Source: Sediminicola sp. YIK13
GTDB lineage: Bacteria > Bacteroidota > Bacteroidia > Flavobacteriales > Flavobacteriaceae
Direction: 5' to 3'
DNA length: 64,000 nt
NCBI RefSeq assembly: GCF_001430825.1
Contig: NZ_CP010535.1
Span: 248,001 to 312,000 of the forward strand
The position numbers were made by a program, and so were the translations under genes. Each line of letters begins with the position of its first letter. The stretch's first letter is position 1. A model generated the notes under the pieces. It did no database searches. It saw only the letters and a list, made by a program, of their open reading frames with translations, and was not told the DNA's origin. Below are positions 38,475-53,914 of this stretch, one piece after another.

Positions 38475-39101
38475 TTAACAACCTTCATCTTCATCTTCTT
38501 CATCTTCTTCATCTTCTTCTTCTCTTCCTTTGCAAATTTTTAAAATTTTCTTTTTTTCTTTTTCTAAAAGTTCAGGTAATTCAGAAACGGTTTCTACTAT
38601 AAAATTATGTCCGTGAATAGAATTCAGTTTTTTATTGTCATCATTTTCTTTTAGTAACTTTAAGTCCTCAAGAATCCATTCTGTTCCCTCTCTAATCATT
38701 TCAGGTTTTTTAAGTTCTATTTGAGTTTTTAGAAATTTAGCAAGCCAATAAATTGAATGTGAATAAAGTTCATTATTGCGAGCAGAAATTGCCATAGAGC
38801 GAGCAACATCTCCTTCTATAACGAGAACGTTTTCTTTGTAATCTTTAATTTTTTTATTAATCTTTACCTCTAAATCAATTTCTAATTGTTTTAAAATTTC
38901 CTTTTTTTCTTTCTCAAATTTCTTTTCTACTCTATTATGAATTTCTTTCTTTGCCCCGCTTTTATTCCACCACCAAGTTGCACCGAGTAGAATAACAACT
39001 ATTCCAAGTAATACCGTTATAAATATTGTATGATTTGAGATTTCTTGTTCTAAAAGAGTCCTATAGATTTCTCCAATTCTATCTGTATTACTTTCCTTCA
39101 T
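38475..39101 (-). CDS. Membrane-anchored coiled-coil protein with acidic tail
   Basis: 208 residues. One membrane helix (about 25-45) is followed by a long Lys/Glu-rich coiled coil (about 55-95, KKFEKEKKEILKQLEIDLEVKINKKIK) and a mixed region. The last 17 residues are nearly all Glu and Asp before a terminal Gly-Cys. I do not recognise the family. It lies upstream of, and on the same strand as, the P-loop ATPase and shares the AT-rich composition, so the two may have arrived together. A copy of the ~66-bp upstream element ends 73 bp before its start. Confidence 0.6.
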   Translation of the reverse strand: MKESNTDRIGEIYRTLLEQEISNHTIFITVLLGIVVILLGATWWWNKSGAKKEIHNRVEKKFEKEKKEILKQLEIDLEVKINKKIKDYKENVLVIEGDVARSMAISARNNELYSHSIYWLAKFLKTQIELKKPEMIREGTEWILEDLKLLKENDDNKKLNSIHGHNFIVETVSELPELLEKEKKKILKICKGREEEDEEDEEDEDEGC

Positions 39102-39173: not shown

Positions 39174-39239
39174 AGCAATATAGAGTATATGACCTCTAAT
39201 TTTCGCTAAAATTCTATGTTTTTGTAAGAAGTTATTAAC
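39174..39239 (-). repeat. Covarying-hairpin element, copy 1
   Basis: One of three diverged ~66-bp copies (others at 51487-51553 and 52569-52635). It shares the AGCAATATAGAG block, the CTATGnTTTTG-like block and the GAAGTTATTAAC end. The central hairpin here is AATTTT (39198-39203) / AAAATT (39208-39213), loop CGCT. On the minus strand, the TATATTG near its downstream end resembles a weak -7 box. It lies 73-138 bp upstream of the coiled-coil gene start. Confidence 0.65.
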
Positions 39240-39378
39240 TTGTAGGAATGGTGGGTAGAGTAGTGTAAATGGTTGGTTTTGGGTTACAATTTGCATGTTG
39301 TTTATCGAGCATTACAAAGAAGCGGATAACAACTCAATTTTCCTTACGGTTTCCCGTAATAGGGAAGAGAATATTTAA

Positions 39379-39818
39379 TTGTCAGGTTGAGCCTTTCGAC
39401 TTCGCTCAAGACAGGCTGCGTCGTAACCTTTGTGACACGGAGCGTTGATTTGAAGCGGTGCCACTGTCCAGACCTCTCGACTGCGCTCGAGGGGACAGAA
39501 ATAAAGGTGGCGGTGACACTGTCCAAACCTCTCGACTGCGCTCGAGGGGATAATAAAAAGGTGGTGGTTCCACTGTCCAGACCTCTCGACTCCGCTCGTG
39601 GAGACAAATAAAGGTGGCGGTGCCACTGTCCAGACCTCTCGTCTGCGCTCGAGGGGACAAAAAAAGGTGGTTGTACCACTGTAAAGACCTCTTCACTGCG
39701 CTCGAGGGGACATAAAAAGGTGGCGGTGCCATTGTCCAGACCTCTCGACTGCGCTCGAGGGGACATAAAAAGGTGGCGGTGCCATTGTCCAGACCTCTCG
39801 ACTGCGCTCGAGGAGACA
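39379..39818. repeat. Intergenic hairpin-repeat cluster 1 (type B once, type A tandem x7)
   Basis: A type-B unit (39379-39439) is followed by seven type-A units with a 53-55-bp period (unit starts near 39451, 39506, 39560, 39613, 39666, 39719, 39772). Each type-A unit contains TGTCC...CTCGA-CTGCG-CTCGAG...GGACA, which folds into a hairpin. Frames across the cluster encode only repeated PLDCARGD-like peptides in several frames, which is a by-product of the repeats and not a protein gene. Copies 6 and 7 are nearly identical. Confidence 0.85.
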
Positions 39819-39825
39819 AAAAAAA

Positions 39826-39868
39826 GGCAGCCTGGACATGTAGATGCCCAAGCTGCCTTTTTTTTAAT
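39826..39868. terminator. Terminator of the HPF gene
   Basis: GGCAGC (39827-39832) pairs with GCTGCC (39852-39857), with A and T runs on both sides. It serves the minus-strand HPF gene ending at 39884 and separates it from the repeat cluster. Confidence 0.8.
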
Positions 39869-39883
39869 ATTAGTGTTTTGCTA

Positions 39884-40198
39884 TTAGTGTTGTTGCATTT
39901 TTCCAACAATGGTCCCCACTGCGGATTTTATTTTATCAATTGCACCTATTACTGCCTGATCTACTGAGTCTGCCTGATTGGTGACGGCAATGGGTTGCTT
40001 GCCCTCAATTCTGGCCTCAATTAAACAGGAGATATCATTGATGCCATCTTTTTTTCCATTCTCATCTTTCAAGTGTACCTCAATTCTGGTAATATGGGAA
40101 TCGAACCTTTGCAGGGCTTCTGCAATTAGGGAGGAAAAATATTCTTCACTTCTCTGTTCCCCTGAAATAGTCTTGTCGGTATTAATTTGAATTGTCAT
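39884..40198 (-). CDS. Short-form HPF/RaiA-type ribosome hibernation factor
   Basis: 104 residues, one sigma-54-modulation/S30EA domain: TIQINTDKTISGEQRSEEYFSSLIAEALQRFDSHITRIEVHLKDENG, then CLIEARIEGKQPIAVTNQADSVDQAVIGAIDKIKSAVG. It binds the 30S subunit in stationary phase or stress. It is unusually placed, flanked on both sides by the repeat clusters, within 120 bp of a terminator at each end. Confidence 0.9.
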   Translation of the reverse strand: MTIQINTDKTISGEQRSEEYFSSLIAEALQRFDSHITRIEVHLKDENGKKDGINDISCLIEARIEGKQPIAVTNQADSVDQAVIGAIDKIKSAVGTIVGKMQQH

Positions 40199-40224
40199 AT
40201 GCTATGTTTTTTGCTTAAATTTCT

Positions 40225-40257
40225 AAAAGGCTATTTAGCGAAGCCAAATAGCCTTTT
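40225..40257 (-). terminator. Terminator of the 61-residue protein gene
   Basis: AAAAGGCTATTT (40225-40236) pairs exactly with AAATAGCCTTTT (40246-40257). It lies just downstream of the minus-strand gene ending at 40303. Confidence 0.8.
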
Positions 40258-40302
40258 AATTTTGTGTAAGGTACTCCTTTATCCGGTGTGGATAGGAAGT
40301 AT

Positions 40303-40488
40303 TTAGTTTCTTTGATCATCTCCTGGTCTAGGCGACTTAAATACATCTAATCCCTCTTTTCTATACTCCATCACTTGTTTCTTGATAAACTCACGGAACT
40401 CCTTATTGCTCTGATCGTCCTGTTTGGAGAATTCAGCTACTGTTTTTGTTATCCCTTTTGACTTTGTATTCAAAAAAGTTGTACTCAT
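40303..40488 (-). CDS. Small hypothetical protein
   Basis: 61 residues: STTFLNTKSKGITKTVAEF followed by a charged helical segment (FREFIKKQVMEYRKEGLDVFKSPRP). No signal peptide or membrane segment. It has its own terminator 3' and starts just after an AT-rich upstream region, so it is probably expressed. Not recognised; possibly a stress or stationary-phase protein given its place beside HPF. Confidence 0.6.
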   Translation of the reverse strand: MSTTFLNTKSKGITKTVAEFSKQDDQSNKEFREFIKKQVMEYRKEGLDVFKSPRPGDDQRN

Positions 40489-40720
40489 AAAAAATTGTTT
40501 TAATAGTTAGTTTGCAGTTTAAAAATTTAATAATGAAATTTTATTAATACCATCTTAAAATCCGGAGAATAAGTTAACAATTGGCATACCCAAAAGTGAG
40601 GTAACTACTTAAAAATAAGGCTATTGGTTTGTCTCCCAGTGTCTTAGGCGGCTGAGGTGTTTAAGGTAAAGATTTCCCATAATGGGAGGAAATTGTGGGA
40701 GAAGGGGGGAGGTAAAAAAA
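40489..40720. other. Spacer, nothing recognised
   Basis: This AT-rich spacer between the 61-residue protein gene and repeat cluster 2 contains no frame with coding character and no clear hairpin. Confidence 0.4.
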
Positions 40721-41222
40721 AGGCAGTGGTGCCACTGTCCAGACCTCTCGACTGCGCTCGAGGGGACAGAAATAAAAGTGGCGGTGCCACTGTCAGGTTG
40801 AGCCTTTCGACTCCGCTCAAGACAGCCTGCGTCGAAACCTATGTGACACGCAAGGTTGGTTAATGGTGTCACTGTCCAGACCTCTCGACTGCGCTCTAGG
40901 GGACAGGAGGGAAATGTTTCGTTGTCAGGTTGAGCCTTTCGACTCCGCTCAAGACAGGCTGCGTCGAAACCTATGTGACACGCAAGGTTGGTTAATGGTG
41001 TCACTGTCCAGACCTCTCGACTGCGCTCGAGGGGACAGCTGTAAAATGTTTCGTTGTCAGGTTGAGCCTTTTGACTCCGCTCGGGGGAACAAAAGGAAAT
41101 GTTTCGTTGTCAGGTTGAGCCTTTCGACTCCGCTCAAGACAGGCTGCGTCGAAACCTATGTGACACGCAAGGTTGGTTAATGGTGTCACTGTCCGGACCT
41201 CTCGACTCCGCTCGAGGGGACA
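40721..41222. repeat. Intergenic hairpin-repeat cluster 2 (alternating types A and B)
   Basis: Order: A (from 40721), B (40789-40850), A (40864-40905), B (40922-40981), A (41000-41038), hybrid (41054-41091), B (41107-41166), A (41185-41222). Type B starts TGTCAGGTTGAGCC and ends ACCTATGTGACA, with TGTCA/TGACA and TTCGAC/GTCGAA complementary arms. The hybrid joins the left half of B to the right end of A (GCTCGGGGGAAC). The spacers CGCAAGGTTGGTTAATGGTG are also repeated, so A-B pairs were duplicated as larger units. Confidence 0.85.
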
Positions 41223-41235
41223 GTAGGCAATCCTG

Positions 41236-41388
41236 TTACCTTTTAGGCATTCGAAATTGTATCATCAGGGAGGACACTATCTTTACCGTACCAATGGTAA
41301 TTACGGCATACTCCACATCAAACAGATCCGCTATGATTCTGGAAAGAATGGCACCTTTTAACTGCTGCCATTGTAGGTAGCTACTAGA
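41236..41388 (-). pseudogene. Start-less open frame, possible gene remnant
   Basis: Fifty-one codons open on the minus strand from a stop at 41389-41391 to TAA at 41236-41238, without a Met start. The peptide LKGAILSRIIADLFDVEYAV followed by ITIGTVKIVSSLM has coding-like composition, and the fragment sits between the TSUP stop and repeat cluster 2. It may be the 3' remnant of a gene disrupted by repeat insertion; chance is also possible. Confidence 0.25.
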
Positions 41389-41400
41389 TCAAATAGTAAT

Positions 41401-42177
41401 TTATATCAGACCGGCACCAAGCGCAAGGGATATAAGAATCAACATGATGGCCACGATAGACTGTAAGGATTTAAGGGTTACCTTTTTTAGAAGTTTATTA
41501 CCTAGGTAGGCACCCGTAATGGCGGATATGGTGGCAATAACCACTAAGGGTAGGTTGTCTATAAGACCTGATTTTGAAAACCTGGTCGCATAAACCCCCA
41601 ACCTCGTAAAATCCACAAAAGTGGATACCACCACGGAGGTCCCTATAAAAACTTCCTTTGATAATCCGGCCTTAATTAAAAAAGCACTTCTCAAGGCCCC
41701 TTGATGCCCGGAAAGTCCTCCAAAAAATCCGCTCAGAGCACCGCCCAGGGGTAATTTTCCTTCTGAAAATTGGAGTCGCTGAAACGAGGGCAACAAATCC
41801 ATTAGCGCAAAGAAAATGAGCAAGATGGAAATAATGAATTTCACCGGATATACTTCATAGGTGTTTCCCAAAAATTGATATGAGAAAATAGCCTTGGCAT
41901 CTGGGATATGAAGTAGAAGCCATGCCCCAAAAAAGGCAAAAACAACGGCCGGGACTCCAAATTTTAGGAGTACTCTTTTATTAGCATGCTTACCTACCAA
42001 TATTATTTTAAAGATATTGTTGAAAAAATGGACCAAGCCAGTCAATGCTATGGCCAGTTCCACAGGAAAAAAGAGCATAAATACGGGGGTAAGTATGGTC
42101 CCCAGCCCAAAACCGGAGAAAAAGGTTAGAATGGCGACCAGGAAAGATACTATTGCTATTAGGATTGTCTCCATATG
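41401..42177 (-). CDS. TSUP family (TauE/SafE) anion exporter
   Basis: 258 residues from the ATG at 42177 (METILIAIVSFLVAIL); five codons of upstream extension are possible. Eight predicted helices, with the first TSUP repeat FLVAILTFFSGFGLGTILTPVFML and the second GALSGFFGGLSGHQGALRSAFL. The GLSGxQGA motif is typical. It exports sulfite or another small organic anion; which one cannot be told. Confidence 0.9.
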   Translation of the reverse strand, partial: HMETILIAIVSFLVAILTFFSGFGLGTILTPVFMLFFPVELAIALTGLVHFFNNIFKIILVGKHANKRVLLKFGVPAVVFAFFGAWLLLHIPDAKAIFSYQFLGNTYEVYPVKFIISILLIFFALMDLLPSFQRLQFSEGKLPLGGALSGFFGGLSGHQGALRSAFLIKAGLSKEVFIGTSVVVSTFVDFTRLGVYATRFSKSGLIDNLPLVVIATISAITGAYLGNKLLKKVTLKSLQSIVAIMLILISLALGAGLI

Positions 42178-42350
42178 AATCGAGGGCTGCAATTCATGGA
42201 TAACCGTTATATTCTAGATAATAACGGATGCCATAGATTGATTTATGATATCAATATAGCAATTAATGCCCTTGACGACCAAAAAGAAATGGAAATGAAC
42301 GACCTATTTTGAAAATGTAATTGGATGTGGCCTTTGTCATCAATTGTTGT

Positions 42351-42944
42351 TCAATTTAATAGTCGGTAATGGATTGGTATTCCTTTTTCCAACCAAATAA
42401 TTTCTATATATAAGTTTCCATTTTCATTTAGTTTACCCAAGGTTAGCTTAGGGTCAATGGGTGAAGAACCATGTGGTAAAACTGTACGCCATTGAAAACC
42501 TTCCCAGGCGCTATTAAAACCATTTTCCTTGTCTGAGACTGTTATTTTCTTGATGATACTGAGGGATTGGTCATTCAAATAGGCTGAAGTTGAAGAAAGG
42601 TCAATACGGATGATGGGTGCAAAACTATCTTCAATAGGTCGAAGGTTCAATATCGAGTCTTTGTAGTTTATGGAGAATGCAATAGATCCCGATTTGACGA
42701 ACTTTAATTCAGGAAGAATATGCTCTTGTTCCAATTCTATAATTTGTATTTTTCCGTTTTCATCTTTTAGAACCCTTGTTTTGGTTTTAATGGGAACTAA
42801 CTTGTTCTCCATCAATTTAAAGGAGTATTCTCCATCAGCAAACTCATTGCCAATAAACTTATGAAGTTCCATTTTTAGCTGTTGTGAAAAGCCATATGAC
42901 ATGTTCAACAGAAAGACAAGAAGTATTAGTGATGCGTGTTTCAT
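42351..42944 (-). CDS. Hypothetical exported protein
   Basis: 197 residues with a signal peptide (KHASLILLVFLLNMSYGFSQQ). The mature part is beta-rich without known motifs. I do not recognise a family. It stands alone between the TSUP and DoxX genes. Confidence 0.65.
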   Translation of the reverse strand: MKHASLILLVFLLNMSYGFSQQLKMELHKFIGNEFADGEYSFKLMENKLVPIKTKTRVLKDENGKIQIIELEQEHILPELKFVKSGSIAFSINYKDSILNLRPIEDSFAPIIRIDLSSTSAYLNDQSLSIIKKITVSDKENGFNSAWEGFQWRTVLPHGSSPIDPKLTLGKLNENGNLYIEIIWLEKGIPIHYRLLN

Positions 42945-43231
42945 TGTTTTCCATTTGAGGTTAACCTAACTTTTGATAATTAGCTTATTTGTTCTACCAA
43001 CAATTCAAGGATAATATCTGATGACTTAATAATATCCAAGCAATATCTCCATGGTTCCATCTGAATGGAAAGTGTTTTCTTTGATGGTGATAACAGGTCT
43101 TAAATCATTTTTAAAATATTTCTTAGAATAAATTATTGCTTCCTATTTTAGAATAAGATAGCTAATAAATAAAAGCAAAACGTTCATAACAGACTGTATT
43201 ATCAGTTTGTGATAATGCGTGTTTTATGTAA
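42945..43231. other. Intergenic spacer with no recognised feature
   Basis: AT-rich, without coding character on either strand; no clear promoter or terminator. Confidence 0.4.
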
Positions 43232-43738
43232 TTAGGTTATTTTTCTGCTAATTAGATGGTCTAGTCCAATTTTTCCAGAACCAAAAACCAAAGCATAAAT
43301 ACTGACCCATAAAAATCCCAACGCGGGAAGAATTGGCCAAACCCCTTGTTCCAGTACCTTTGGCCATTGCTGAAAGAAGATAGCTGTTAACATTGTCAGA
43401 CCAATCATTAGTCCCCAAAATCTAGTGGCCAATCCCAAGGCTAGAAAAAGGCCTCCAATCGCTTCACTTGCGGCACCCAGCCAAGCAAACAACCAAGGAG
43501 CTAAGCTAAATGGGATCCCAAATTTTGCCACATCCTCAGGAAACCAACTAGCTACTTCGAACAATGCAAGTGGCTCCTCTGAGTTGGACCATGGCATTCC
43601 AAATTTACTAGAGCCAAAGTCGAGGGTCAATAACAGTCCACAAAGTATCCTGGGAATAGCAAATAAAATATTTCCCCATAAAGAGGTAATGGCTATTGGT
43701 TTTAGATTCCATTTTGTGAAACTTTTTAAAAAACGCAT
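43232..43738 (-). CDS. DoxX family membrane protein
   Basis: 168 residues from the ATG at 43738 (MRFLKSFTKWNLKP); ten more residues upstream are possible but less likely. DoxX landmarks: FAIPRILCGLLLTLDFGSSKFGMPW, then LAPWLFAWLGAASEAIGGLFLALGLATR and TMLTAIFFQQWP. Four helices. A role in redox or sulfur metabolism is known for DoxX proteins in some organisms; not demonstrable here. Confidence 0.85.
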   Translation of the reverse strand: MRFLKSFTKWNLKPIAITSLWGNILFAIPRILCGLLLTLDFGSSKFGMPWSNSEEPLALFEVASWFPEDVAKFGIPFSLAPWLFAWLGAASEAIGGLFLALGLATRFWGLMIGLTMLTAIFFQQWPKVLEQGVWPILPALGFLWVSIYALVFGSGKIGLDHLISRKIT

Positions 43739-43883
43739 ATCAATATGTTTTATCAGATACAAGGGCACCCGACAGATTAATTTTATGAAAGATACAACAA
43801 CTTATAATTAGGTTTTTAAAGGCTAAGGTCAAAGGATTGAGCAGAAATCTCTTTTTTTAGGGTGCATGAAAAATTCTTCTTTG

Positions 43884-44255
43884 CTATTTGGGCGTTTTAT
43901 TGGGAAAGCTAAGTTTCCGTTCTTCCCTTATTTCACCAATATGGTAATAGGCTATTATTTCTAATATGAGATTGTCTTGAACATAATACCATTCACTCAC
44001 CTCCATAGAAAAATCGCCCTGGGTGGTAGTGTAGCGCACGCCGGCCCTGTTCTCGCCATATAGGGCTTCGTGCAGTTCAAATTTATGTCCTAAAAATTTA
44101 TCCTTATTGGTGGCCACCAACTCTAAATACGTTTTTTTGCCTACTATGGTGCCAAATGGACTGCTATGCTTGAAATTTTCAGCTATGGGGAGGGAATTAA
44201 AATCTCCGGATTCCCATAGATCGAACCATCTTTTTACCAAATCTTTTATCCCCAT
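43884..44255 (-). CDS. SnoaL-like domain protein
   Basis: 123 residues. KDLVKRWFDLWESGDFNSLPIAENFKHSSPFGTIVGK is the usual SnoaL/NTF2-like beginning, and a beta sheet with EWYYVQDNLILEIIAYYH follows. These fold proteins act as cyclases, isomerases or binding proteins; no catalytic residues can be assigned. Its start is 3 bp after the VOC gene stop, so the two share a transcript. Confidence 0.85.
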   Translation of the reverse strand: MGIKDLVKRWFDLWESGDFNSLPIAENFKHSSPFGTIVGKKTYLELVATNKDKFLGHKFELHEALYGENRAGVRYTTTQGDFSMEVSEWYYVQDNLILEIIAYYHIGEIREERKLSFPNKTPK

Positions 44256-44258
44256 TGT

Positions 44259-44630
44259 TTATACGTGCTGATCAATTAAAATGGCATTGCCGTCTGGATC
44301 CGTCAAAACAATACTCGCTGGTCCATTTGTACTTTCATCTGCTTCTTGGTTAAGTGGGATGCCGTTTTTCTTTAAGGATTTTTGAATTTCCCTGACATCA
44401 TCAAAACTGTCCAGTTTCTTTGCGTTGGTATCCCAACCTGGATTAAACGTTAAAATATTATTTTCAAACATGCCCTGAAAAAGTCCGATCAGGGAGTGTT
44501 CATTTTTCATAATGAGGTAATTTTTTTCAAGGTCCCCTGCAAAAACAGTGAATCCCAATTTCTCGTAAAAATCCTTGGATACCTTTATGTCCTTAACATT
44601 AAGGCTAACTGAAAATGCTCCTAATTTCAT
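44259..44630 (-). CDS. VOC family protein (glyoxalase/bleomycin-resistance fold)
   Basis: 123 residues: KLGAFSVSLNVKDIKVSKDFYEKLGFTVFAGDLEKNYLIM, then the C-terminal GPASIVLTDPDGNAILIDQH with the typical DPDGN signature. The metal ligands of glyoxalase I cannot be fully matched. Probably a lyase or dioxygenase-like enzyme; it is first in a two-gene unit with the SnoaL-like gene. Confidence 0.9.
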   Translation of the reverse strand: MKLGAFSVSLNVKDIKVSKDFYEKLGFTVFAGDLEKNYLIMKNEHSLIGLFQGMFENNILTFNPGWDTNAKKLDSFDDVREIQKSLKKNGIPLNQEADESTNGPASIVLTDPDGNAILIDQHV

Positions 44631-44769
44631 AACAGTGATTTTTTTTGGTTCCTATTAGAACCTCAAGTTATGATTTTATGGAGAATAACTGGATGCGAAC
44701 AGTGGATTTGTTGCAAGCCAATAAATATATCGAGGGTAGTCCATATTGGAAGTCCAAAGAATTTAAAAC

Positions 44770-44837
44770 CGCTCGAGGGGACATTAAAAGGTGGCGGTGC
44801 CACTGTCCAGACCTCTCGACTGCGCTCGAGGAGACAG
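44770..44837. repeat. Intergenic hairpin-repeat, single type-A copy plus partial copy
   Basis: A right half-unit (CGCTCGAGGGGACA at 44771-44784) is followed by one full type-A unit (44790-44837). It is the third locus of the repeat family in this window, upstream of the VOC gene and downstream of the DUF1059 gene. Confidence 0.8.
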
Positions 44838-44896
44838 GAATGTGCCAGAGGAAACTATAAGTACTCCTCTTTCTAATTTTTACGCTGGCTTTTCCT

Positions 44897-45136
44897 TTAT
44901 TCGTCCTTAGACAGGGCATCAAATTCTTTTCTTTTAGAAGCGAACCATTCTTTTAAGGCATCAGGGGTTGTCATGAGTTGTTTCATTTTTTTCATGGCGT
45001 TCAGATGTGCCTCATCCCCTTTTTGGAACATTTCCATCCCGTGTCTTTTGCTCATTTCCTCTATTTCCTCAAAGGTATTGGCCTTAAATTCTTTGGAACA
45101 TGCCCCTCCCAGTTGTTTGCAGGTCATTGTTTTCAT
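44897..45136 (-). CDS. DUF1059-like small protein
   Basis: 79 residues starting KTMTCKQLGGACSKEFKANTFEEIEEMSKRHGMEMFQKGDEAH, which matches the DUF1059 pattern of two cysteines (CKQLGGAC) followed by a helical half. No function is known. The Cys pair suggests a metal site. It stands alone between the repeat copy and the RidA gene. Confidence 0.85.
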   Translation of the reverse strand: MKTMTCKQLGGACSKEFKANTFEEIEEMSKRHGMEMFQKGDEAHLNAMKKMKQLMTTPDALKEWFASKRKEFDALSKDE

Positions 45137-45173
45137 AATAGATTTTTACCAATTCTTTTCAAGTTATAAATAA

Positions 45174-45689
45174 TCAATCCATTTTATGTACTTCCATCTC
45201 AATTTCAATCATAAATTCTGGAAGCGCCAGTTCTTTTACACCAAGCCAAGATCCGGTCGGAAAATTATTGGTATAAATCGTACCTCTGTATGCGCCATGC
45301 TCCAACAATAAAGGCATATTAGTGGTGAAAATATTTTCCACGATCACATCATCAAAGGTGCAACCATAATGTGTCAATATTTTTTCCAGATCGGTATAGC
45401 AATTTTTCATTTGTTGTTCAAAATCACCCACCGCTGTAGGATTTCCTTCATTATCCATACTTACTGCTCCAGATATTTTGATGTCATTGCCAATTTTTAC
45501 AGCATGCGAATATCCATAAGCTTTTTCGATTTCGGGGCGTAGGTTGAAGTATTCTGGCTGTTCTATTTTGACCGCTACTTCTTCTTGTACTTCTTTATCA
45601 GCTTCTTTACACCCATGAATAGAGATACAAACTAGGCAAAGTGTCATCAACAAGGTTTTTGGATGCAAAATAAGGTTAAATGCTTTCAT
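45174..45689 (-). CDS. RidA/YjgF family lipoprotein
   Basis: 171 residues. A lipoprotein signal (CLVCISIHGCKEADKE) precedes the RidA core: PEIEKAYGYSHAVKIGNDIKISGAVSMDNEGNP, CYTDLEKILTHYGCTFDDVIVENIF, then GSWLGVKELALPEFMIEIEMEVHK. The catalytic Arg of true RidA enamine deaminases is not evident in its usual place, so the protein may be a non-enzymatic RidA subfamily member. Unlike most, it is predicted to be exported. Confidence 0.85.
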   Translation of the reverse strand: MKAFNLILHPKTLLMTLCLVCISIHGCKEADKEVQEEVAVKIEQPEYFNLRPEIEKAYGYSHAVKIGNDIKISGAVSMDNEGNPTAVGDFEQQMKNCYTDLEKILTHYGCTFDDVIVENIFTTNMPLLLEHGAYRGTIYTNNFPTGSWLGVKELALPEFMIEIEMEVHKMD

Positions 45690-46004
45690 AATATTGGTAG
45701 ATTAGCTGGTGCCTACTCTTTCGGTTTTCGGCTTCCCCGTTTGTCTATAGCAGACAAAAGGTTTTAGAACATTGTAAACAGAACCACAAAGCAACCAAGC
45801 GAAGTGATTCGCTGATGATTGAAGAACTTCTTAAAAAGAGGGAATATTAATTGATTAAATATAGCGAATATTTTCCAAAAAAATTGACTAAACCGTTCTT
45901 TGTGAGCATTTTGGGTTTCATTACGGAATTGAATGCAGATTACATAAATTCCCACCCAGTTGCACAGGGCATAAGACCATTAGACATCTGTTGCTACGGT
46001 CTGT
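45690..46004. other. Spacer without a convincing gene
   Basis: An open plus-strand frame at 45851-46096 and a minus-strand frame at 45764-45955 exist, but neither has signal, family motif or coding bias. A frame ending S-D-S-L-M-I-E-E-L-L-K-K-R-E-Y at 45840-45849 looks like a possible gene tail. No hairpin or promoter was recognised. Confidence 0.3.
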
Positions 46005-46832
46005 TTAATTCAGGTATTTCTGCAGAGCTTCCTCAAATAAAGGATCACTTGGTCTTAATTGGGCGTTGGAGAGGATTTCTCCTTCTGGGGAAATGATCAC
46101 ATATTTGGGAAGGGTCACCAGGATAACAGGAGAGTTTTCAATTATGTGCTTGGAATACGTCAATGAATAGAATGGATTCCCTTCTTTTTGACCCAACCAA
46201 TAATGGTTTCCTATCCAATTCTTATCTTTTAAAAATCCTTTCCAACCTGTAAAATCTTGATCAACAGAAATAGTAATGAACTCTACATTGTCAGCAGCAT
46301 GTTTTTCGGCTAATTGTTTAAAAATAGGAGCTTCTTCCAAACATGGGGCACACCATGTGGCCCAGAAATCTATGATGATGTATTTTCCCCTAAAAGATTC
46401 TATGGCTACGGTACCATCGTCAATCGACAAAAATGATCCGTTGGGCACGGGTTGTCCTTCCATGACCGATTCCAATTTAATAAATTCATCTTCTTTTGGA
46501 GCGTTGTATTTTAACTCTTCCAGGGTCAAAGGCATCATTACCAATGCCTTTACCATTCCGCTTTCATCAAAATACAATTGTTGTTTTACTTTTTTGGCAT
46601 TTATCAAGGAGCGAAAGTCTTTAGGGCTCACCAATTCTCCTTTTAGATCGTAGATGGGGATAAACTTTACATTGTACGTTATTGTTCCCATCTTTTCCAA
46701 TTGGGAGGCAGAATAGAGCGTTAAATCAACTATTTTGTTTTTTAACTCAGGGCTGTAACCTTTTGTATCAGAGTTGGTGCACGAAATAAAAAATATACTA
46801 GCGACTAATAAAAGTAGTTTGGAGCTTTTCAT
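46005..46832 (-). CDS. TlpA-like thioredoxin-fold lipoprotein
   Basis: 275 residues from the ATG at 46832 (MKSSKLLLLVASIFFISCTN), which gives a perfect lipoprotein signal; 26 upstream codons are not needed. The redoxin domain has FWATWCAPCLEEAPIF with the CxxC pair, followed by VEFITISVDQDF and SPEGEILSNAQLRPSDP. It reduces disulfides or assists cytochrome maturation in the periplasm. The N-terminal ~110 residues before the redoxin domain are of the DUF4369-like type. Confidence 0.9.
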   Translation of the reverse strand: MKSSKLLLLVASIFFISCTNSDTKGYSPELKNKIVDLTLYSASQLEKMGTITYNVKFIPIYDLKGELVSPKDFRSLINAKKVKQQLYFDESGMVKALVMMPLTLEELKYNAPKEDEFIKLESVMEGQPVPNGSFLSIDDGTVAIESFRGKYIIIDFWATWCAPCLEEAPIFKQLAEKHAADNVEFITISVDQDFTGWKGFLKDKNWIGNHYWLGQKEGNPFYSLTYSKHIIENSPVILVTLPKYVIISPEGEILSNAQLRPSDPLFEEALQKYLN

Positions 46833-46992
46833 AATTGTTCCTTTGTCGCAACCTTTTGTTAATGGGTTACCATAAGGGAATATAGAAAATATTATACAAA
46901 CTAACGGCATGGAATTAATAATACACGCATAAACTTTTAAGAGGCAGGCATTAAACTATGTCCTCAGGACAAAAATTTAAGCGTTATTTACT

Positions 46993-47877
46993 TTATTGAA
47001 GCGAAAAAACCTCATAGGTTCTGGTCCATTCCGTGACCTGTCCAGCTTGAAGCGAAATGCTGTGGAACAGTTCTGGACTTATCACATGCGTCCATCCCCA
47101 TAGATTAATACTATGGGTTGGAAAATTACCTGTTTCTCGAATCCCAATCTTGCTACTGTTATTTAGAAGTTCCCATTGTGCGGGAACCGATTGGCCTCCG
47201 GATAGGTTGCTAAAAAAGAATTGTTCTTTGGGTGTACCTAGGAATGAAAAATCGCTTTTACCGAGCACCACTTTCCTTTCTGGGTTCACCGTTTCCCCAA
47301 AATGGTCGGGCTGCAGGGAGAATGAAAATTTTAAATGATAATTACAGCCTATCAAATCTTTGTCCACCTTTAAAAAGTTGTGATTGTATTCACTGGTTTC
47401 AATGCATTTTTTACCTGTATTCCTTAATCGATAACCAATCCTAAAACCATTTGACAATAGCTCAATCTCCTTGTGTAAGACATACCCGTAATCATTATGA
47501 AGCCTAGAAGTACAGGTAATGGATATTTTAGTATCGTTTTTGGTGACTTTAAATTCGGCGGGCTGCACCTCGTAGGCCCTTTGGAAGTCGTAGGTGTCCG
47601 AATCTTTTCGTATGAGCCCCACGCCAATCTTATGAAACCAATCTCCAATCTCTGTCCCCTCAAATCCTAGTGGGGAGTCGATGCCAAATTCATTGTAAAA
47701 GCCCTTGCCCATATGTTCTCCTGCCTTAATATCGGTTCGCTCCACCCCAGTAATGGCGGTTTTGTTAAAAGTAACGGTTGTTATTTTTCCGGTCCAGTCG
47801 AAGCGGGATCCCACATAATTTTCCGTAGGCAGGTAAATCTGTAATTCCAAAAGATCATTTCTAAGGGTATGGGGCAT
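46993..47877 (-). CDS. Galactose mutarotase-like (aldose epimerase-fold) protein
   Basis: 294 residues. Beta-sandwich pattern with YVGSRFDWTGKITTVTFNKT, EFGIDSPLGFEGTEIGDWFHKIGVGLIRKD and TSEYNHNFLKVDKDLIGCNY fits the galactose mutarotase-like superfamily, uncharacterised subgroup. The catalytic Glu of GalM is not in its usual context, so the activity is uncertain. It is not linked to sugar genes here. Confidence 0.75.
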   Translation of the reverse strand: MPHTLRNDLLELQIYLPTENYVGSRFDWTGKITTVTFNKTAITGVERTDIKAGEHMGKGFYNEFGIDSPLGFEGTEIGDWFHKIGVGLIRKDSDTYDFQRAYEVQPAEFKVTKNDTKISITCTSRLHNDYGYVLHKEIELLSNGFRIGYRLRNTGKKCIETSEYNHNFLKVDKDLIGCNYHLKFSFSLQPDHFGETVNPERKVVLGKSDFSFLGTPKEQFFFSNLSGGQSVPAQWELLNNSSKIGIRETGNFPTHSINLWGWTHVISPELFHSISLQAGQVTEWTRTYEVFSLQ

Positions 47878-48396
47878 TTGGCGTTTTTAAGGAAGGCTAA
47901 AATAATGGCATATTTTTAAAGTACAGCATTGCTGGGCAAGATTCTTTTGTCGTTTTCGGTCATGGAATAGCGTCTAAAGTTACCTATCTATTATTTCAAT
48001 GGAATGATTTGAACCAGCGACATGTCCTAACCCCATTGCTCCCGAAATTGATTGGTAAAAGTAATTCCGCTTTTTTTAATTTGCGAAATTAATATCGCAA
48101 AATTCAGCTATCCCTTGGGCGCTATTTTTCAATTAAGATGGGGCAATCAGAAAAATATTGATAGACATTATCTTTAAATGTTCTAACTACTGTGTTGTTA
48201 GCCCCTAAATGGAACAATTTATTGTCATCGGGTTTTTAACATAATAAGTGGTTACAGCGTATGAAGTCATTCTAAAACAGCTCACACCCCTGCACTGAAT
48301 GAAGTTTCTCCGCTGATGCTTTTAGTGTGGAGTCCAACTTTTTTTTTTTGTCCAATACTTTAAGTAGTGGAAATTAATTTAATGGATCTAAATGCC
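47878..48396. other. 520-bp spacer, with a tRNA-like fragment
   Basis: No gene. The minus strand at 48005-48030 reads GTTAGGACATGTCGCTGGTT then CAAATC, resembling the variable loop and T-arm of a tRNA, but the 3' half of the T stem does not pair and no acceptor arm exists. CTAAC (48183-48187) and GTTAG (48197-48201) could form a small hairpin. A run of ten T lies at 48341-48350. Confidence 0.3.
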
Positions 48397-48960
48397 TTAC
48401 TGGATAAGGCTGGCTTTTTTACCTTTATAAGAAGAGTATAGCAATAGTGCTAAAACTGCAAGACAGCTAGCAATAAAAATTCCTATCAGATACATTTGCT
48501 CTGGTGTAGCCCAAAGAGCAAGTAGCAATGCTCCAAAAGAAATAATTCCTCCCATAATGGCAAATCCTAATTCGTTATAAAACAAGGCATAGGGAAAAAA
48601 GTGTGCGCCGGTAATGATCACATATCCCATGATAAAATAATCAGGAAGATAAATCAAAATAAAAATAAGAAAGGGGAAGTAAAATAGTTGGGCAATATTT
48701 AACCATAGGCCCAACGGCTGTAGCGGATTGTCCTTAATTTTCCATTGTGTCTTCAAGATTTTAGACATAACAAAAGCTAAGGGCAGCATAAGGCCACCGA
48801 CAATAAAGGTAAGGACGCTTTTGTCATAAGAAGAAAACGGAAGGGTCCATACAAATGTAATTATCAGCCATATCAAAGTTGCGGCAAGGATAAAATCAAG
48901 CCCATTTTTGGCTTTTAGGGATAATTCCAATTTTAGTTGATTTAGGTCGGTTTTGGTCAT
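48397..48960 (-). CDS. Membrane protein, DUF7010-like
   Basis: 187 residues with six predicted membrane helices after a charged N-terminus (KTDLNQLKLELSLKAKNGLDFILAATLIWL). The N-terminal LELSLKAKNGLDFI pattern fits what I recall of the DUF7010 family, but this is uncertain. Function unknown. It starts 17 bp after the DedA gene stop, so it belongs to the same transcript. Confidence 0.7.
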   Translation of the reverse strand: MTKTDLNQLKLELSLKAKNGLDFILAATLIWLIITFVWTLPFSSYDKSVLTFIVGGLMLPLAFVMSKILKTQWKIKDNPLQPLGLWLNIAQLFYFPFLIFILIYLPDYFIMGYVIITGAHFFPYALFYNELGFAIMGGIISFGALLLALWATPEQMYLIGIFIASCLAVLALLLYSSYKGKKASLIQ

Positions 48961-48976
48961 TTTATGGTGGTTTTAG

Positions 48977-49675
48977 TTAGATTTTTGTGGTCATTTTTTT
49001 TAGTAGTCTCTTCAGCAACGAGAATAGCAATGGTAAGGTTGTAATTATAATTAGACTTAAAAATATAATTCCGTAATTGTTTTTTACCCAAGGGATCTCA
49101 CCAACAAAATAACCTGTCAAGAGAAATATTGTAATCCAGGCCACAGCTCCCGTAATGGTGTTTTTCATAAAGCTATGGCGCTCCATGCGAACAATCCCAG
49201 CTAAAAATGGGATATAGGTACGGACTATGGGAAAAAACCGCCCGATGATAATGGCTCGTCCCCCATGTTTGGCATAAAATTCTTCCGCCTTTGGAACATG
49301 GGCCATTAGATAGTTTTTAATGAGGTAATTGTTGCTCTGCTTTAGTCCTGCACCCATGGTCATACCCACATAGAAGTTGATGGTATTTCCTACTATTGCG
49401 GCGGTAATGAGCAAAACCAATAATACCCACACATTCATTTCTGTAGAGGCAGCAACCACTCCGGCAGAAAATAGCAATCCGTCTCCTGGTAAAAAAGGAA
49501 AAACGATCAGCCCCGTCTCCAGCATAATAATTAAAAAAAGGATAAAGTAGGCCTTATAAATATTATCGGCCACTAGGGAGATGAGGGCATCATCCGTATG
49601 AAGGATGAAATCTATGAGTTGATCCATGAAATGATAAATTGCACCAGGGAAAAGTACAAAATAGCTGTACTTCAT
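48977..49675 (-). CDS. DedA family membrane protein
   Basis: 232 residues (an internal Met ten residues in could also be the start). The VTT/SNARE-associated domain motifs are visible: LETGLIVFPFLPGDGLLFSAGV and the RFFPIVRTYIPFLAGIVRM segment with its conserved Arg, which faces the lipid headgroup pocket. DedA proteins are proposed to flip undecaprenyl phosphate or phospholipids. Co-transcribed with the small membrane protein downstream. Confidence 0.92.
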   Translation of the reverse strand: MKYSYFVLFPGAIYHFMDQLIDFILHTDDALISLVADNIYKAYFILFLIIMLETGLIVFPFLPGDGLLFSAGVVAASTEMNVWVLLVLLITAAIVGNTINFYVGMTMGAGLKQSNNYLIKNYLMAHVPKAEEFYAKHGGRAIIIGRFFPIVRTYIPFLAGIVRMERHSFMKNTITGAVAWITIFLLTGYFVGEIPWVKNNYGIIFLSLIIITTLPLLFSLLKRLLKKMTTKI

Positions 49676-49709
49676 AAGAAAAAGTCAGATATATTTTTTG
49701 ATGAACTTT

Positions 49710-51422
49710 TTAATAGCCTATTGCAGCTCCGTCTGGACTTGAAGAGTCAGAAGCTCCAATCATGATATTATTTTTTGCGTCTAGTTGAATTCCCATTAGG
49801 GAACCCAATGAATTTACTGGGACTAAGGTATGGTTCATGTCTTCTAGGGCCTTTCGGGTATCTGGCGATAGAAGCGTACGTTCATATTCAATTTGATCGG
49901 GCAACCACTGGTGATGAATTTTCATAGCTTCGATCGCCTTATCTACCTGCATATCGTAGGCTAGTACATTCAGCACCGTCTGAAAAACGGTATTGATAAT
50001 GGTCCTTCCTCCAGGGCTTCCAATAATTAGATAGGGTTTCCCATCTTTGGCCACAATGGTAGGAGTCATGCTGGAAAGCATTCTCTTTTCGGGCTGAATT
50101 AGGTTGGGATCTGTTCCAATTTGACCCGAACTTGTAGTAAAACCGGGTTGAGGATTAAAGTCGCCCATTTCATTATTAAAAATAAAACCTAGCTTCTTGG
50201 CACCCATTCCTGAACCATATGAATGTTCTAAGGTGTAGGTTAGGGATACAGCGTTACCCTCTTTATCCATCACAGAAAAGTGAGTGGTGCTGCTGCCATC
50301 GTACATCTGCCCAAATTTGGTTGTATCACTTATGGAGGCTTTTGTCATATCAATATTTTCAAAACGGGTTTTGGCAAATGATTTGGAAGTCAGTTTATCC
50401 AATGGTGTGTCTAAATTAAAATCAGAATCTCCTAAATGTTCTGCTCTATCAGCAAAGGCTCTTCGCATGGCTTCCGCAATCAAATGCACGTATGCCGCAG
50501 AATTGAATTCTATGGAATCCAGATTGGCCAATTCCATTAGATTCATCATTTCTATGAGTGCCACGCCTCCTGAACTTGGTGGAGGCATGGAATAGATATC
50601 GTAACCTTTAAAATTCCCTTTAATCGGTTTCCTTTCAATGGCTGTGTAGCGTTCAAGATCTTTCAATGTGATCAGACCTCCATTTTCTTTAATAAACCGG
50701 ACAATCTCTTTGGCAACAACCCCTTTGTAAAAACCATCTTGACCATGATCTCGGATTTCCGTTAAGGTATTGGCCAGCTCAGGTTGTTTCCACAATTCTC
50801 CAAACTGTGTGGGTTCACCATTGGCATTTTTAAAGTAATTTTTCAGAAAAGGAACAGGGGAGTTGGTTTCAAAAAATGTGGCCGCGTTAAAAAGGTCCCA
50901 GGTAAGCGGGAAACCATTTTCGGCTATATCAATAGCGGGCTGAATCAAATTTTCCCAAGGCAGGCTCCCATATTTTTGATGCGCAAGATACAGTCCGGCC
51001 ACTGTTCCAGGTACTCCCACTGATTTAGCACCAATGTGATTGACATTGGACTCCATTCCGTAGAGGTTCATTCCTTTTGCAAGATTCCCAGCATCATCTA
51101 GAAACATATTTGGTGATGCCTTTATTGGTGCTTTTTCCCTAAAGTCAATGGTGGTAGTTGTTCCTGAAGTATTCATAAATACCAAAAAACCTCCACCTCC
51201 AATATTCCCCGCTGATGGATGGGTGACGGCTAAGGCAAATGCCGTTGCTATAGAAGCATCAATTGCATTTCCACCTTTTTTTAGAATATCTACCCCAACC
51301 TGGGAAGCTATTTTGCTACTTGAAGCTACCATGCCGTTTCTGGCATAAACCTGACCAAACATGTAATGTCCATGGATGAAAACTACAAGGAGAACTATAA
51401 AAAAGGGTGCTTTGTATTTCAT
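49710..51422 (-). CDS. ggt: Gamma-glutamyltranspeptidase
   Basis: 570 residues from the ATG at 51422 (MKYKAPFFIVLLVVFIHGHYMFGQ, a signal peptide). Frames upstream exist but run into the repeated upstream element. The autoprocessing Thr and hallmark TTHFSVMDKEGNAVSLT are at about residue 374, and the glycine loop GSPGGRTIINTV and EAMKIHHQWLPDQIEYE are typical. It hydrolyses glutathione and other gamma-glutamyl compounds in the periplasm. A copy of the ~66-bp element lies 65-131 bp upstream. Confidence 0.94.
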   Translation of the reverse strand: MKYKAPFFIVLLVVFIHGHYMFGQVYARNGMVASSSKIASQVGVDILKKGGNAIDASIATAFALAVTHPSAGNIGGGGFLVFMNTSGTTTTIDFREKAPIKASPNMFLDDAGNLAKGMNLYGMESNVNHIGAKSVGVPGTVAGLYLAHQKYGSLPWENLIQPAIDIAENGFPLTWDLFNAATFFETNSPVPFLKNYFKNANGEPTQFGELWKQPELANTLTEIRDHGQDGFYKGVVAKEIVRFIKENGGLITLKDLERYTAIERKPIKGNFKGYDIYSMPPPSSGGVALIEMMNLMELANLDSIEFNSAAYVHLIAEAMRRAFADRAEHLGDSDFNLDTPLDKLTSKSFAKTRFENIDMTKASISDTTKFGQMYDGSSTTHFSVMDKEGNAVSLTYTLEHSYGSGMGAKKLGFIFNNEMGDFNPQPGFTTSSGQIGTDPNLIQPEKRMLSSMTPTIVAKDGKPYLIIGSPGGRTIINTVFQTVLNVLAYDMQVDKAIEAMKIHHQWLPDQIEYERTLLSPDTRKALEDMNHTLVPVNSLGSLMGIQLDAKNNIMIGASDSSSPDGAAIGY

Positions 51423-51486
51423 AATTAGTATTTCTAACGTTTGTATGAAGTTACTGTGTAAATCTTTAGGCAATTGATAATCAGAT

Positions 51487-51553
51487 AGCAAGATAGAGCA
51501 TATGACCTCATTCTATTAGATAGAAATCTATGATTTTGTGCGAAGTTATTAAC
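51487..51553 (-). repeat. Covarying-hairpin element, copy 2
   Basis: Diverged copy of the element at 39174-39239. Its hairpin is TTCTAT (51511-51516) / ATAGAA (51520-51525), 24 bp into the element as in copy 1 but with a different stem sequence. Reading towards the gene, it ends in TATCTTGC, which resembles a -7 box, 65 bp before the ggt ATG. Confidence 0.65.
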
Positions 51554-51618
51554 AGAGGGGGCAGGGGAATTGTGGATGTAATATACTTGTGAACTGCTCC
51601 CGTGGTAGCTTTAGCGTA

Positions 51619-51665
51619 TCAGTCGTACTTAGGAACGGACAGGCCAAAATACTCATTGATAGTGG
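51619..51665 (-). pseudogene. Remnant of the 3' end of the intradiol dioxygenase gene
   Basis: 43 of 47 bases match the last 47 bp of the intact gene (52700-52746), including the stop. The peptide is T-I-N-E-Y-F-G-L-S-V-P-K-Y-D versus T-T-N-E-Y-F-D-L-P-V-P-K-H-D. Nothing upstream of it is homologous. It is therefore a fragment and lies in the same orientation as the intact gene 1.08 kb away. Confidence 0.8.
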
Positions 51666-51762
51666 TCCCGCTTAATCTTCCCACTTCCAGTCAATTTAAT
51701 TCATCTCGTCAGAATAGTTCAGCCTATTGGATTGGTCCATTTTATAATTTTCATAGGTCTCC

Positions 51763-52036
51763 TTAACACATTAATTTGTTTTCGGTTTCCATTTCCAAAA
51801 AAATCACTGTTGGTTTAAATTCAGCAATTCTTTGAACCAATTATTTTAAATCAGTCATTTCTTTAGGGTCTTTTAAATCTATCATGGCGGAATTGGCATC
51901 CGTAGTCAGACTTAAATAAGCAGTACCAAAATTCAGGACTTTAATTTTTGATTCTTCATCTGATTTTGCCTGTCCTAATACAGAGAATGAAAATTGAATA
52001 AAAAAGTAGGGTTCAAAGGGATTGTTTTATTTTCAT
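51763..52036 (-). pseudogene. Decayed secreted protein gene, DUF5694-like
   Basis: Reading from the ATG at 52036, six codons are followed by a frameshift into FIQFSFSVLGQAKSDEESKI and VLNFGTAYLSLTTDANS, which looks like a signal peptide and the opening strand of DUF5694 (TraB-like) proteins. An in-frame TAA at 51841 interrupts D-L-K-*-L-V-Q-R-I-A-E-F-K-P-T-V-I-F-L-E before another stop at 51763. The gene is also truncated, since most of the domain is missing. Clear pseudogene, low certainty on the family. Confidence 0.65.
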
Positions 52037-52145
52037 AAAAAGGAGAGTGGATACTTACAATGACTAAAAGAATATATTTTATAAGAATTCTTCAAACTAG
52101 AAAGAGCGTCTTCCATAAGGTTGATAAAACCTGATAAAATATGAA

Positions 52146-52490
52146 TTATTCTTTAACAGGAAGCTGATATACTTCTTTGTCAGCACTATTAATTAAAAGT
52201 ACTGCGCCAACAGTAGCTAACGTTAATCCTCCAGCCAATCTAAGAACAGAGGTCTTTTTTCTTTTGGCCTTATCAATTTTCGATTTAGGCAATTCCATAA
52301 TATTTTCAGTGATTTCAACAAAAATGCTATTTTCATTAACGCGCTGACATCTTGTTTCGAATCTTTGTCCGTTCAAAAGAGTTAATTCATAAGTTTTTCC
52401 CGTTTTTATTTCAGATATACTTACAGGTTGGTAGATTTGACAGCTTTGCATTAAAAGTATAAAAAGCACTAGTATATTTAATTTTTTCAT
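52146..52490 (-). CDS. Small lipoprotein, unknown function
   Basis: 114 residues from the ATG at 52490 (MKKLNILVLFILLMQSCQIY), giving a lipoprotein signal with Cys17; an upstream in-frame ATG at 52544 adds an implausible segment. After a beta-rich part (TYELTLLNGQRFETRCQRVNENSIFVEI) there is one hydrophobic helix (RLAGGLTLATVGAVLLIN). Not recognised. A copy of the ~66-bp element lies 79-145 bp upstream, as for ggt and the coiled-coil gene. Confidence 0.65.
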   Translation of the reverse strand: MKKLNILVLFILLMQSCQIYQPVSISEIKTGKTYELTLLNGQRFETRCQRVNENSIFVEITENIMELPKSKIDKAKRKKTSVLRLAGGLTLATVGAVLLINSADKEVYQLPVKE

Positions 52491-52568
52491 AAAAATGAGG
52501 TCTAGGTTACATGAGTATGGAATACACCATATAATGAAATACAATCTTTTTTGCCTTATTAATAAGAA

Positions 52569-52635
52569 ACCAATATAGAGAATATCTCATCATCTTTTAA
52601 GATAACATTCTATAATTTTAGAAGGAATTATCAAC
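52569..52635 (-). repeat. Covarying-hairpin element, copy 3
   Basis: Most diverged copy. Its hairpin is ATCTT (52592-52596) / AAGAT (52599-52603), at the same position as in the other copies but again with a different stem. CTCTATATTGG near the downstream end resembles a -7 box. It lies 79 bp before the ATG of the small lipoprotein gene. Confidence 0.6.
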
Positions 52636-52699
52636 TCGCTAGGATAAAGATAGCAGATGACTATTTCTAGTTGACAACACTTTAAAGGTTACAATAAGA

Positions 52700-53914
52700 T
52701 CAGTCGTGCTTAGGAACGGGCAGGTCAAAATACTCATTGGTAGTGGCGTCCAAGGTTTGGGAGAGCTTCAAAAAATTTTCCGTAGTGGGTTTGAGGCCCA
52801 CATATTTATCTATAATAGTGCGGTATTTGTATATGATAAAGGTATTTTCCACCTTGGGATCCAATTTGTTGAGGTGTATCTCACTGCCCTTATCCAAAAA
52901 GGAAGGTACAAACGTAAGTGCCAAATGTTCCAAATTCAATTCCTTGCCCACCTGTTCCAATTCCTTGATTCTTTTTTCTTTGGTATACCCTTGGTCATTT
53001 CCATAGACAAAATAGGCTTTTAGATATTTACTTCTATTACGGCTTTCCTGTTCCAAATAGGTCAACCAATTTTTGATGTCCTCCCAATTGGGATTGTTGC
53101 CCACGAAGTAGATAATACCGTGGTAACGCCCGTACTTGCAAACGGGACAGGTTTTGGTACCTTTATCTGGGCCCCAGGCATGGTATGGGGCAAAAGAGGG
53201 CTGATCTTCCCCAATTTCCAGTCCAGATTGCTGGGCCGAAGCCGGTTTTTCTGGATAATTAGGGATGTTCAACCCCAAGACAATATTGTGTTCGGCAATC
53301 TGAAGGTCATCGGAAATCAGGACCCTAAGCTTTCCACTACCACCCCTATTTTCAGGCGGATTCTTTTTCCAGGCAGGAAGCAGCAAAGGATCATCGTCAA
53401 AAACAAATTCGTCTATATAGTATTCATCGGGGATATTGGGTTCTTTGATGGCCATATGGATATGGGCGGGCATTACCGCTTTAGGGTAGGGCGCTGGCCT
53501 AATGGTATATATGGCATAATGTCCCTTGTCATCGGTTTTTACCCAGCCCCTTAAGTGTCCATGTCTTCTCGCTTTGGGCTCCATTCCCTCAACAGGGGAG
53601 TAGTATCCTTCGGCATCCGTTTGCCAGTAATAGATGATCACATTGGGGGCCGGTATTTTACCGCCAAGTTTATAAACAGTACCTGTAATAAGTAATTTTT
53701 GCCCTTTTTCGGTCCATCCGGCGCTGGTATCAACCGCAGCGATATTTTTCGGCATCCCAACGTACATCAGCTCACAACCATCGCAACCCCCGCCTACGAC
53801 TGCTTGACTTTGGTTTGGGGAGGATACAGGTGCTTTTTTTTGGGGCTGCCCATTGCAACTGCAAAGCATGGCAAGGAATGTAAAGAGAATATAAAATGGT
53901 GCCGAATTTTTCAT
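52700..53914 (-). CDS. Intradiol ring-cleavage dioxygenase-like lipoprotein with C-terminal CxxC domain
   Basis: 404 residues with a lipoprotein signal (FTFLAMLCSCNGQ). The dioxygenase domain (about 45-215) has the Fe(III) ligand pattern of protocatechuate dioxygenases: Tyr in GYYSP, then Tyr in RPAPYPKAVMPAHIHMAI, with the H-x-H pair. The C-terminal ~150 residues contain CPVCKYGRYHGIIYFVGNNPNW, a thioredoxin-like CxxC start, fused to it. It is an exported protein, unlike classic cytosolic ring-cleaving enzymes; the substrate is unknown. Confidence 0.85.
   Translation of the reverse strand: MKNSAPFYILFTFLAMLCSCNGQPQKKAPVSSPNQSQAVVGGGCDGCELMYVGMPKNIAAVDTSAGWTEKGQKLLITGTVYKLGGKIPAPNVIIYYWQTDAEGYYSPVEGMEPKARRHGHLRGWVKTDDKGHYAIYTIRPAPYPKAVMPAHIHMAIKEPNIPDEYYIDEFVFDDDPLLLPAWKKNPPENRGGSGKLRVLISDDLQIAEHNIVLGLNIPNYPEKPASAQQSGLEIGEDQPSFAPYHAWGPDKGTKTCPVCKYGRYHGIIYFVGNNPNWEDIKNWLTYLEQESRNRSKYLKAYFVYGNDQGYTKEKRIKELEQVGKELNLEHLALTFVPSFLDKGSEIHLNKLDPKVENTFIIYKYRTIIDKYVGLKPTTENFLKLSQTLDATTNEYFDLPVPKHD

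Follow-up and report, generated by a model that had tools for sequence, protein, structure and literature searches.

Transcription starts mapped in Flavobacterium psychrophilum fall into six motifs, one of which, SM5, has the box TAnnTTGY at positions -12 to -5, its TA and TTG standing one base closer together than those of TAnnTTTG, the sigma-A box (PMC9723704). As presented in that study, SM5 genes are concerned with lipopolysaccharide biosynthesis, amino-acid scavenging and gliding; the published selection of this class includes a lipoprotein and a P-loop protein, mutation of the conserved bases at one operon confirmed their role there, and SM4-6 together make up 7% of the high-confidence starts (PMC9723704). 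We have analysed a stretch of 64,000 nucleotides from Sediminicola sp. YIK13, a member of the Flavobacteriaceae (contig NZ_CP010535.1, positions 248,001 to 312,000; hereafter the window), in which an element of approximately 66 bp occurs in three copies, c1, c2 and c3. On the evidence of the sequence, and with about even confidence, we read this element as a candidate promoter region, SM5-like and equipped with an upstream activator site, that would have been multiplied by local duplication.

The three copies lie on the minus strand at the coordinates given in Table 1 and have a 5' block and a 3' block in common, as an earlier reading of the letters alone (the first-pass annotation) had described; its placing of them shortly before the start codons of a coiled-coil-like gene, the gamma-glutamyltranspeptidase gene ggt and a small lipoprotein-like gene was likewise borne out. 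Over 66 columns, identity amounts to 53/66 between c1 and c2, 47/66 between c1 and c3, and 45/66 between c2 and c3. For the same pairs it is 24/27, 20/27 and 19/27 in the 5' block, 9/17, 10/17 and 10/17 in the centre, and 23/27, 21/27 and 20/27 in the 3' block. When each copy was left out in turn, a profile of the other two recovered it in the window, at E 3.4e-7 (c1), 4.2e-8 (c2) and 2.6e-4 (c3), E being calculated for the 7.14 Mb that both strands of the genome comprise. Searched against its own genome as a plain DNA query, c2 found c1 at E 3.7e-10 together with five weak matches, and missed c3. A profile search of the same 3.57 Mb genome returned three matches at 72-81 bits, followed by a next best of 13.2 bits; all three strong matches lie inside 13.5 kb on one strand, unlike the many copies of a dispersed genomic repeat. 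A pattern search allowing up to three mismatches gave four places in the genome, namely c1, c2, c3 (three mismatches) and one other (three mismatches), against one place for a control pattern. The repeat is real and its three copies are related, chance being excluded for the repeat itself; the element is local, three-copy and situated upstream of genes.

At its 3' end each copy carries a candidate -7-type box, TATnTTG(C), which would be of the SM5 kind, with an alternative sigma factor as its most likely reader. Some 32-58 bp upstream of the box lies the conserved 5' block (GTTAATAACTTC..ACAAAA.CATAGA), a probable activator site. Transcription starting about 5 nt after the box would give leaders of approximately 61-75 nt for ggt, for the coiled-coil-like gene (perhaps together with an anti-phage ATPase gene) and for the lipoprotein-like gene. 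Use of the box, and the sigma factor and activator acting there, are predicted. In the comparison with SM5, which covers the TAnnTTGY box alone as distinct from the rest of the published SM5 logo, the box is exact in c1 and c2, and the element resembles the described promoters in standing before genes and in having no exact TAnnTTTG; in our judgement ggt also fits the amino-acid-scavenging theme described for this class (PMC9723704). It differs from them in that c3 ends in G, in that the element is conserved to about 58 bp upstream of the box, in that its copies are confined to one locus, and in that starts were mapped in F. psychrophilum but are predicted here. The primary sigma-A promoters of Bacteroidetes share with it the TA and TTG elements and AT-rich surroundings, the box of the element being one base shorter between the two. 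No exact TAnnTTTG was found in the 220 bp before each of the three genes, and one-mismatch sites are present over that length before the genes behind c2 and c3. The sigma-54 consensus is GG-N10-GC (-24/-12); none of the three genes has it within the 220 bp upstream, and a sigma-54 promoter was rejected on that ground. A sigma-70 type scan of 51400-52750 gave 7 sites against 6.0 expected.

Table 1. Coordinates (positions in the window) of the three copies, their predicted promoter boxes, and the surrounding genes and gene remnants.
Feature	Position	Strand	Remarks
Copy c1	39174..39239	-	72 bp before ATG of the coiled-coil-like gene 38475-39101
Copy c2	51487..51553	-	64 bp before ATG (51422) of ggt
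Copy c3	52569..52635	-	78 bp before ATG (52490) of the small lipoprotein-like gene
TATATTGC, SM5-like -7 box of c1	39175..39182	-	exact TAnnTTGY; predicted start near 39170, leader ~69 nt
TATCTTGC, SM5-like -7 box of c2	51488..51495	-	exact TAnnTTGY; predicted start near 51483, leader ~61 nt
TATATTGG, box of c3	52570..52577	-	one base off TAnnTTGY, one off TAnnTTTG; predicted start near 52565, leader ~75 nt
Lysine-rich coiled-coil-like protein with N-terminal hydrophobic stretch, behind c1	38475..39101	-	read from sequence
ggt, gamma-glutamyltranspeptidase, behind c2	49710..51422	-	PF01019, 7.9e-157
Small lipoprotein-like gene, behind c3	52146..52490	-	putative, read from N-terminus
Orphan copy of dioxygenase gene tail	51618..51665	-	64 bp before c2; in-frame stops upstream
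3' end of intact dioxygenase-like gene	52699..52746	-	63 bp before c3; 44/48 bases identical to 51618-51665
Dioxygenase-like gene, intact	52700-53914	-	
Anti-phage ATPase, DS41_1 family	36778..38277	-	next same-strand gene after the coiled-coil-like gene; NF053860, 408.9 bits, cut-off 370
MarR-type regulator gene	36028-36513		

The surroundings of c2 and c3 give an indication of how the copies may have arisen. The same gene tail precedes both, at 64 and 63 bp respectively, placing the two copies in one duplicated segment; the repeated tails are spaced by 1,081 bp, and c2 and c3 were probably duplicated together with the tail. Its origin is the dioxygenase gene, orthologues of which in other genera end with similar residues (15 foreign loci). 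Local alignments revealed no dioxygenase tail near c1. The alignment of c2 with c3 did not surpass shuffled sequence either in the spacer from tail to element (P 0.557) or in the leader (P 0.427), and spacer and leader comparisons involving c1 gave P 0.305, 0.109, 0.144 and 0.666. The element has therefore survived better than the sequence on either side of it, which argues for constraint on the element. Together with an exact box in two of the three copies and a position 64-78 bp before an ATG, this lends support to the promoter reading, and so to part of the first-pass suggestion, which had named a regulator-binding promoter module or a cassette-like leader. In the interval itself, between the lipoprotein-like gene and ggt, gene remnants occupy 51618-52140 on the minus strand, with stops in all three frames; they end in the orphan tail, which is 92% identical to the intact one and has lost its open frame. 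A 61-residue stop-free piece of the remnants had no Pfam family match.

Several observations weigh against an SM5-like promoter. The c3 box misses the last SM5 base, carrying G in place of the final pyrimidine, and the box matches in the three copies are not independent, the copies being related. TAnnTTGY is short, with an estimated chance of ~0.2 of one occurrence per 220 bp at this base composition. Across 756 upstream stretches from 80 loci, TAnnTTGY was found 71 times against 74.0 expected (0.96-fold; 82 antisense); the motif scan itself works, since the sigma-A box was enriched 3.07-fold in these stretches (156 against 50.8 in shuffled sequence; 81 antisense). Such non-enrichment may be what is expected of a rare class. 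Before ggt homologues, in 77 of the 80 loci (three were left out of the count for short upstream sequence), TAnnTTGY gave 9 sites against 8.4 expected; this set has little power, because the sigma-A box was not enriched there either (6 seen against 6.1 expected). With lenient settings, a local alignment of c2 and c3 continues with gaps through spacer and leader, a continuation to which the shuffle test gives no weight. The orphan tail is 92% kept, against 68% for the element between c2 and c3, a difference that would not be expected had both decayed evenly since a single duplication. Lastly, the conservation of the element rests on three copies in one genome. A narrow full-text search of open-licence papers found TAnnTTGY in none beyond PMC9723704, and a similarly narrow search of that literature by title and abstract yielded no counterpart among flavobacterial intergenic repeats with promoters.

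Searches for the element in other genomes produced background. The family set comprised 397 genomes including its own, with no second genome of the genus among them, and 11 candidates were scored per genome. In this set the profile reported the genome of origin and 8 others at E<=0.005, the best foreign match reaching 21.7 bits; a reversed-sequence control model reported 12 of the 397 at the same threshold, with a best score also of 21.7 bits. Foreign matches were taken as background because the control scored as high, and in more genomes. In a scan of 60 genomes, 36 (the own genome included) had a match at E<=0.1, with the best foreign match again at 21.7 bits, and among 19 nearer genomes 13 had one at E<=0.2, the best scoring 18.9 bits. 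The best foreign match (L021), which precedes a recO-like gene, was not counted; its end is an exact sigma-A box. Among the best 80 of 146 ggt loci, three of which have less than 400 bp before ggt, no element lies directly before the gene, the seven matches up to E 10 reaching at best 15.4 bits. No element match was found in the 25 foreign loci searched, out of 39 carrying relatives of the dioxygenase and lipoprotein-like genes, or in viral contigs searched with two patterns, and comparison of the c2 stretch with plasmids (27 records) and phages (1 record) gave short matches, with an E of 0.3 at best. A model from which c3 was left out scores c3 itself at 23.9 bits, so that equally distant relatives might escape detection; at the depth tested, with divergence like that of c3 as the detection limit, the element is specific to its own lineage.

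The same facts can be taken to describe a local duplication that decayed without function, in which intergenic DNA was duplicated inside the locus, leaving the 66 bp as the part that can still be recognised. We regard this as unlikely, while granting it real weight. It accounts for the gene tail standing in register upstream of c2 and c3, for the grouping of all copies within 13.5 kb with no other strong match in the genome, and for the lack of any relative above control level in the other genomes or in the loci searched. Decay alone fits less well with a similarity between c2 and c3 that exceeds shuffled sequence in the element but not in spacer and leader, with the concentration of c1-c2 identity in the ends (24/27 and 23/27, against 9/17 in the centre), a pattern of constraint, or with the presence of each copy 64-78 bp before a start codon.

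A distinctly unlikely explanation is that the element serves as the operator of a local regulon, where a single regulator would bind an inverted repeat, ATAGA / TCTAT, whether or not an SM5 promoter is present as well. The arms ATAGA (columns 27-31) and TCTAT (columns 61-65) are the same in every copy, and a MarR-type regulator is encoded in the window; the repeat, being invariant, gives no test, its arms are 29 columns apart, and it overlaps the promoter box. The predicted binding could coexist with an SM5-like promoter.

The first-pass annotation had emphasised the centre of the element, which it described as a hairpin with covarying pairs kept by selection for structure. The arms are present as strings (AATTTT/AAAATT in c1, TTCTAT/ATAGAA in c2 and ATCTT/AAGAT in c3), but they do not form one hairpin with covarying pairs, for their columns differ: 31-36/41-46 in c1, 33-38/42-47 in c2 and 37-41/44-48 in c3. 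Each stem pairs fully in its own copy only; the c1 stem retains 3/6 pairs in c2 and 2/6 in c3, the c2 stem 2/6 in c1 and 4/6 in c3, and the c3 stem 1/5 in c1 (one of the five being a gap) and 3/5 in c2. As RNA the hairpins have energies of +0.9 (c1), -1.4 (c2) and +0.3 kcal/mol (c3, calculated with four of its five pairs, a loop of two bases not being possible). Taken whole, the copies fold at chance level relative to shuffles: the z-scores for c1, c2 and c3 are -1.36, -0.48 and 0.13 on the minus strand, and the corresponding plus-strand values are 0.47, -0.31 and -1.12. The quoted hairpin is absent from the minimum-energy fold of all three copies on the minus strand. Of the 70-base tiles of the window, 44% contain a perfect stem of 5 bp or more.

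One feature of the centre does favour a structured leader, that is, a central stem maintained by compensatory change. A perfect stem of 5-6 bp lies inside the same 18 columns in every copy; the product of the three shuffle probabilities is 5.4e-5, or 8.2e-5 if each half is shuffled separately, where both the 18-column block and the thresholds were chosen after the data had been seen. Sliding blocks in which all three copies have such stems number 2 of 68, and AT-rich 18-mers of the window contain stems of at least 5 bp in 9.1% and of at least 6 bp in 1.6% of cases. Allowing for the post hoc choice, our estimate for the coincidence, by judgement rather than calculation, is near 1e-3. If the stems are instead aligned by hand on the right arm, 4/6 pairs would have both bases changed between c1 and c2. 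The shared-column palindrome is thus a modest post hoc oddity, which counts against our non-structural reading, yet it is not covariation. Cis-regulatory RNA families in Rfam resemble the element in position before genes, but neither of the two stretches scanned gave an Rfam match at E<=1, and if the SM5 reading holds the centre lies upstream of the transcript. The reading as a structured cis-regulatory RNA fails: the arms are out of register (in three sequences only), the energies run from +0.9 to -1.4 kcal/mol, folding is at chance and there are no homologues for pair counting; we hold selection on such a hairpin to be very unlikely. Further copies in relatives had been set beforehand as the test of the structural claim, and since none stood above the reversed control in the 396 other family genomes, the claim in its strong form falls. 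The case also calls for caution, in that short A-T palindromes in AT-rich DNA resemble covariation when the register of the arms goes unchecked.

It is just as improbable that the element is a recombination or cassette site, resembling integron attC or the end of a mobile element, that brought the genes in. The ends of attC conform to RYYYAAC and GTTRRRY. The shared ends and variable palindromic centre resemble such sites, two copies of the gene tail stand 1,081 bp apart, and one of the two genes behind c1 is a defence gene, which is typical cargo; however, the attC core ends frame no copy, and no integron integrase exceeded its cut-off in the genome, where TIGR02249 gave 10 partial matches, 0 of them over cut-off, with below-cut-off signal in 14/14 control genomes as well. 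Pfam revealed no integrase or transposase family in 30 open reading frames of the window, several of which were without any match, and at 68-80% identity the copies are not recent. Very improbable indeed is a bolder version, in which a regulatory cassette specific to the lineage is locally mobile as a whole; its ends would be conserved and its centre repeatedly rebuilt as a new palindrome that sets copy-specific control, while unrelated genes, including an anti-phage operon, would come under one alternative-sigma switch.

Of the genes that an SM5-like promoter would serve, ggt has its nearest named relatives in a Bacteroidetes metagenome-assembled genome (82%) and Maribacter antarcticus (81%), with Robiginitalea aurantiaca (77%) further down. 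For the lipoprotein-like protein, 10 of the 396 other genomes of the family hold relatives at E<=0.001, an initial contig scan with it having found none, and the coiled-coil-like protein has no relative at that threshold in 298 other family genomes. The ATPase gene is possibly co-transcribed with the coiled-coil-like gene from c1. DS-41 is named among the validated systems in the DefensePredictor paper (PMC13092281); NF053860 would correspond to it, as judged by the family name. The ATPase and coiled-coil-like genes, at 36778-39101 on the minus strand, form a possible two-gene defence unit.

Elsewhere in the window, a DUF805b RNA (RF02914, 45.6 bits, gathering threshold 35.6) was located at 45710-45741 on the minus strand, closely preceding a RidA-like gene (Ribonuc_L-PSP, 45174-45689). 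Repeats of approximately 53 bp with the core CCTCTCGACTGCGCTCGAGGGGACA occur in 12 copies, tandem and dispersed, within 36000-58000; they are found at 39454-39844, 40725-41248 and 44793-44862, on both sides of two small open reading frames. Between repeat tracts, 39884-40198 (minus strand) encodes a 104-aa protein weakly similar to the ribosome hibernation factor HPF/YfiA (17.3 bits against a cut-off of 40.9). A 64-aa protein encoded at 57275-57469 on the minus strand matched the PADLOC model CSD_V at 2.3e-13, the name of which suggests a cold-shock domain.

If the reading of the element as an SM5-like promoter is true, a defence gene pair, ggt and a lipoprotein-like gene would be tied to one little-known flavobacterial promoter class, and the locus would show a promoter spreading by local duplication.

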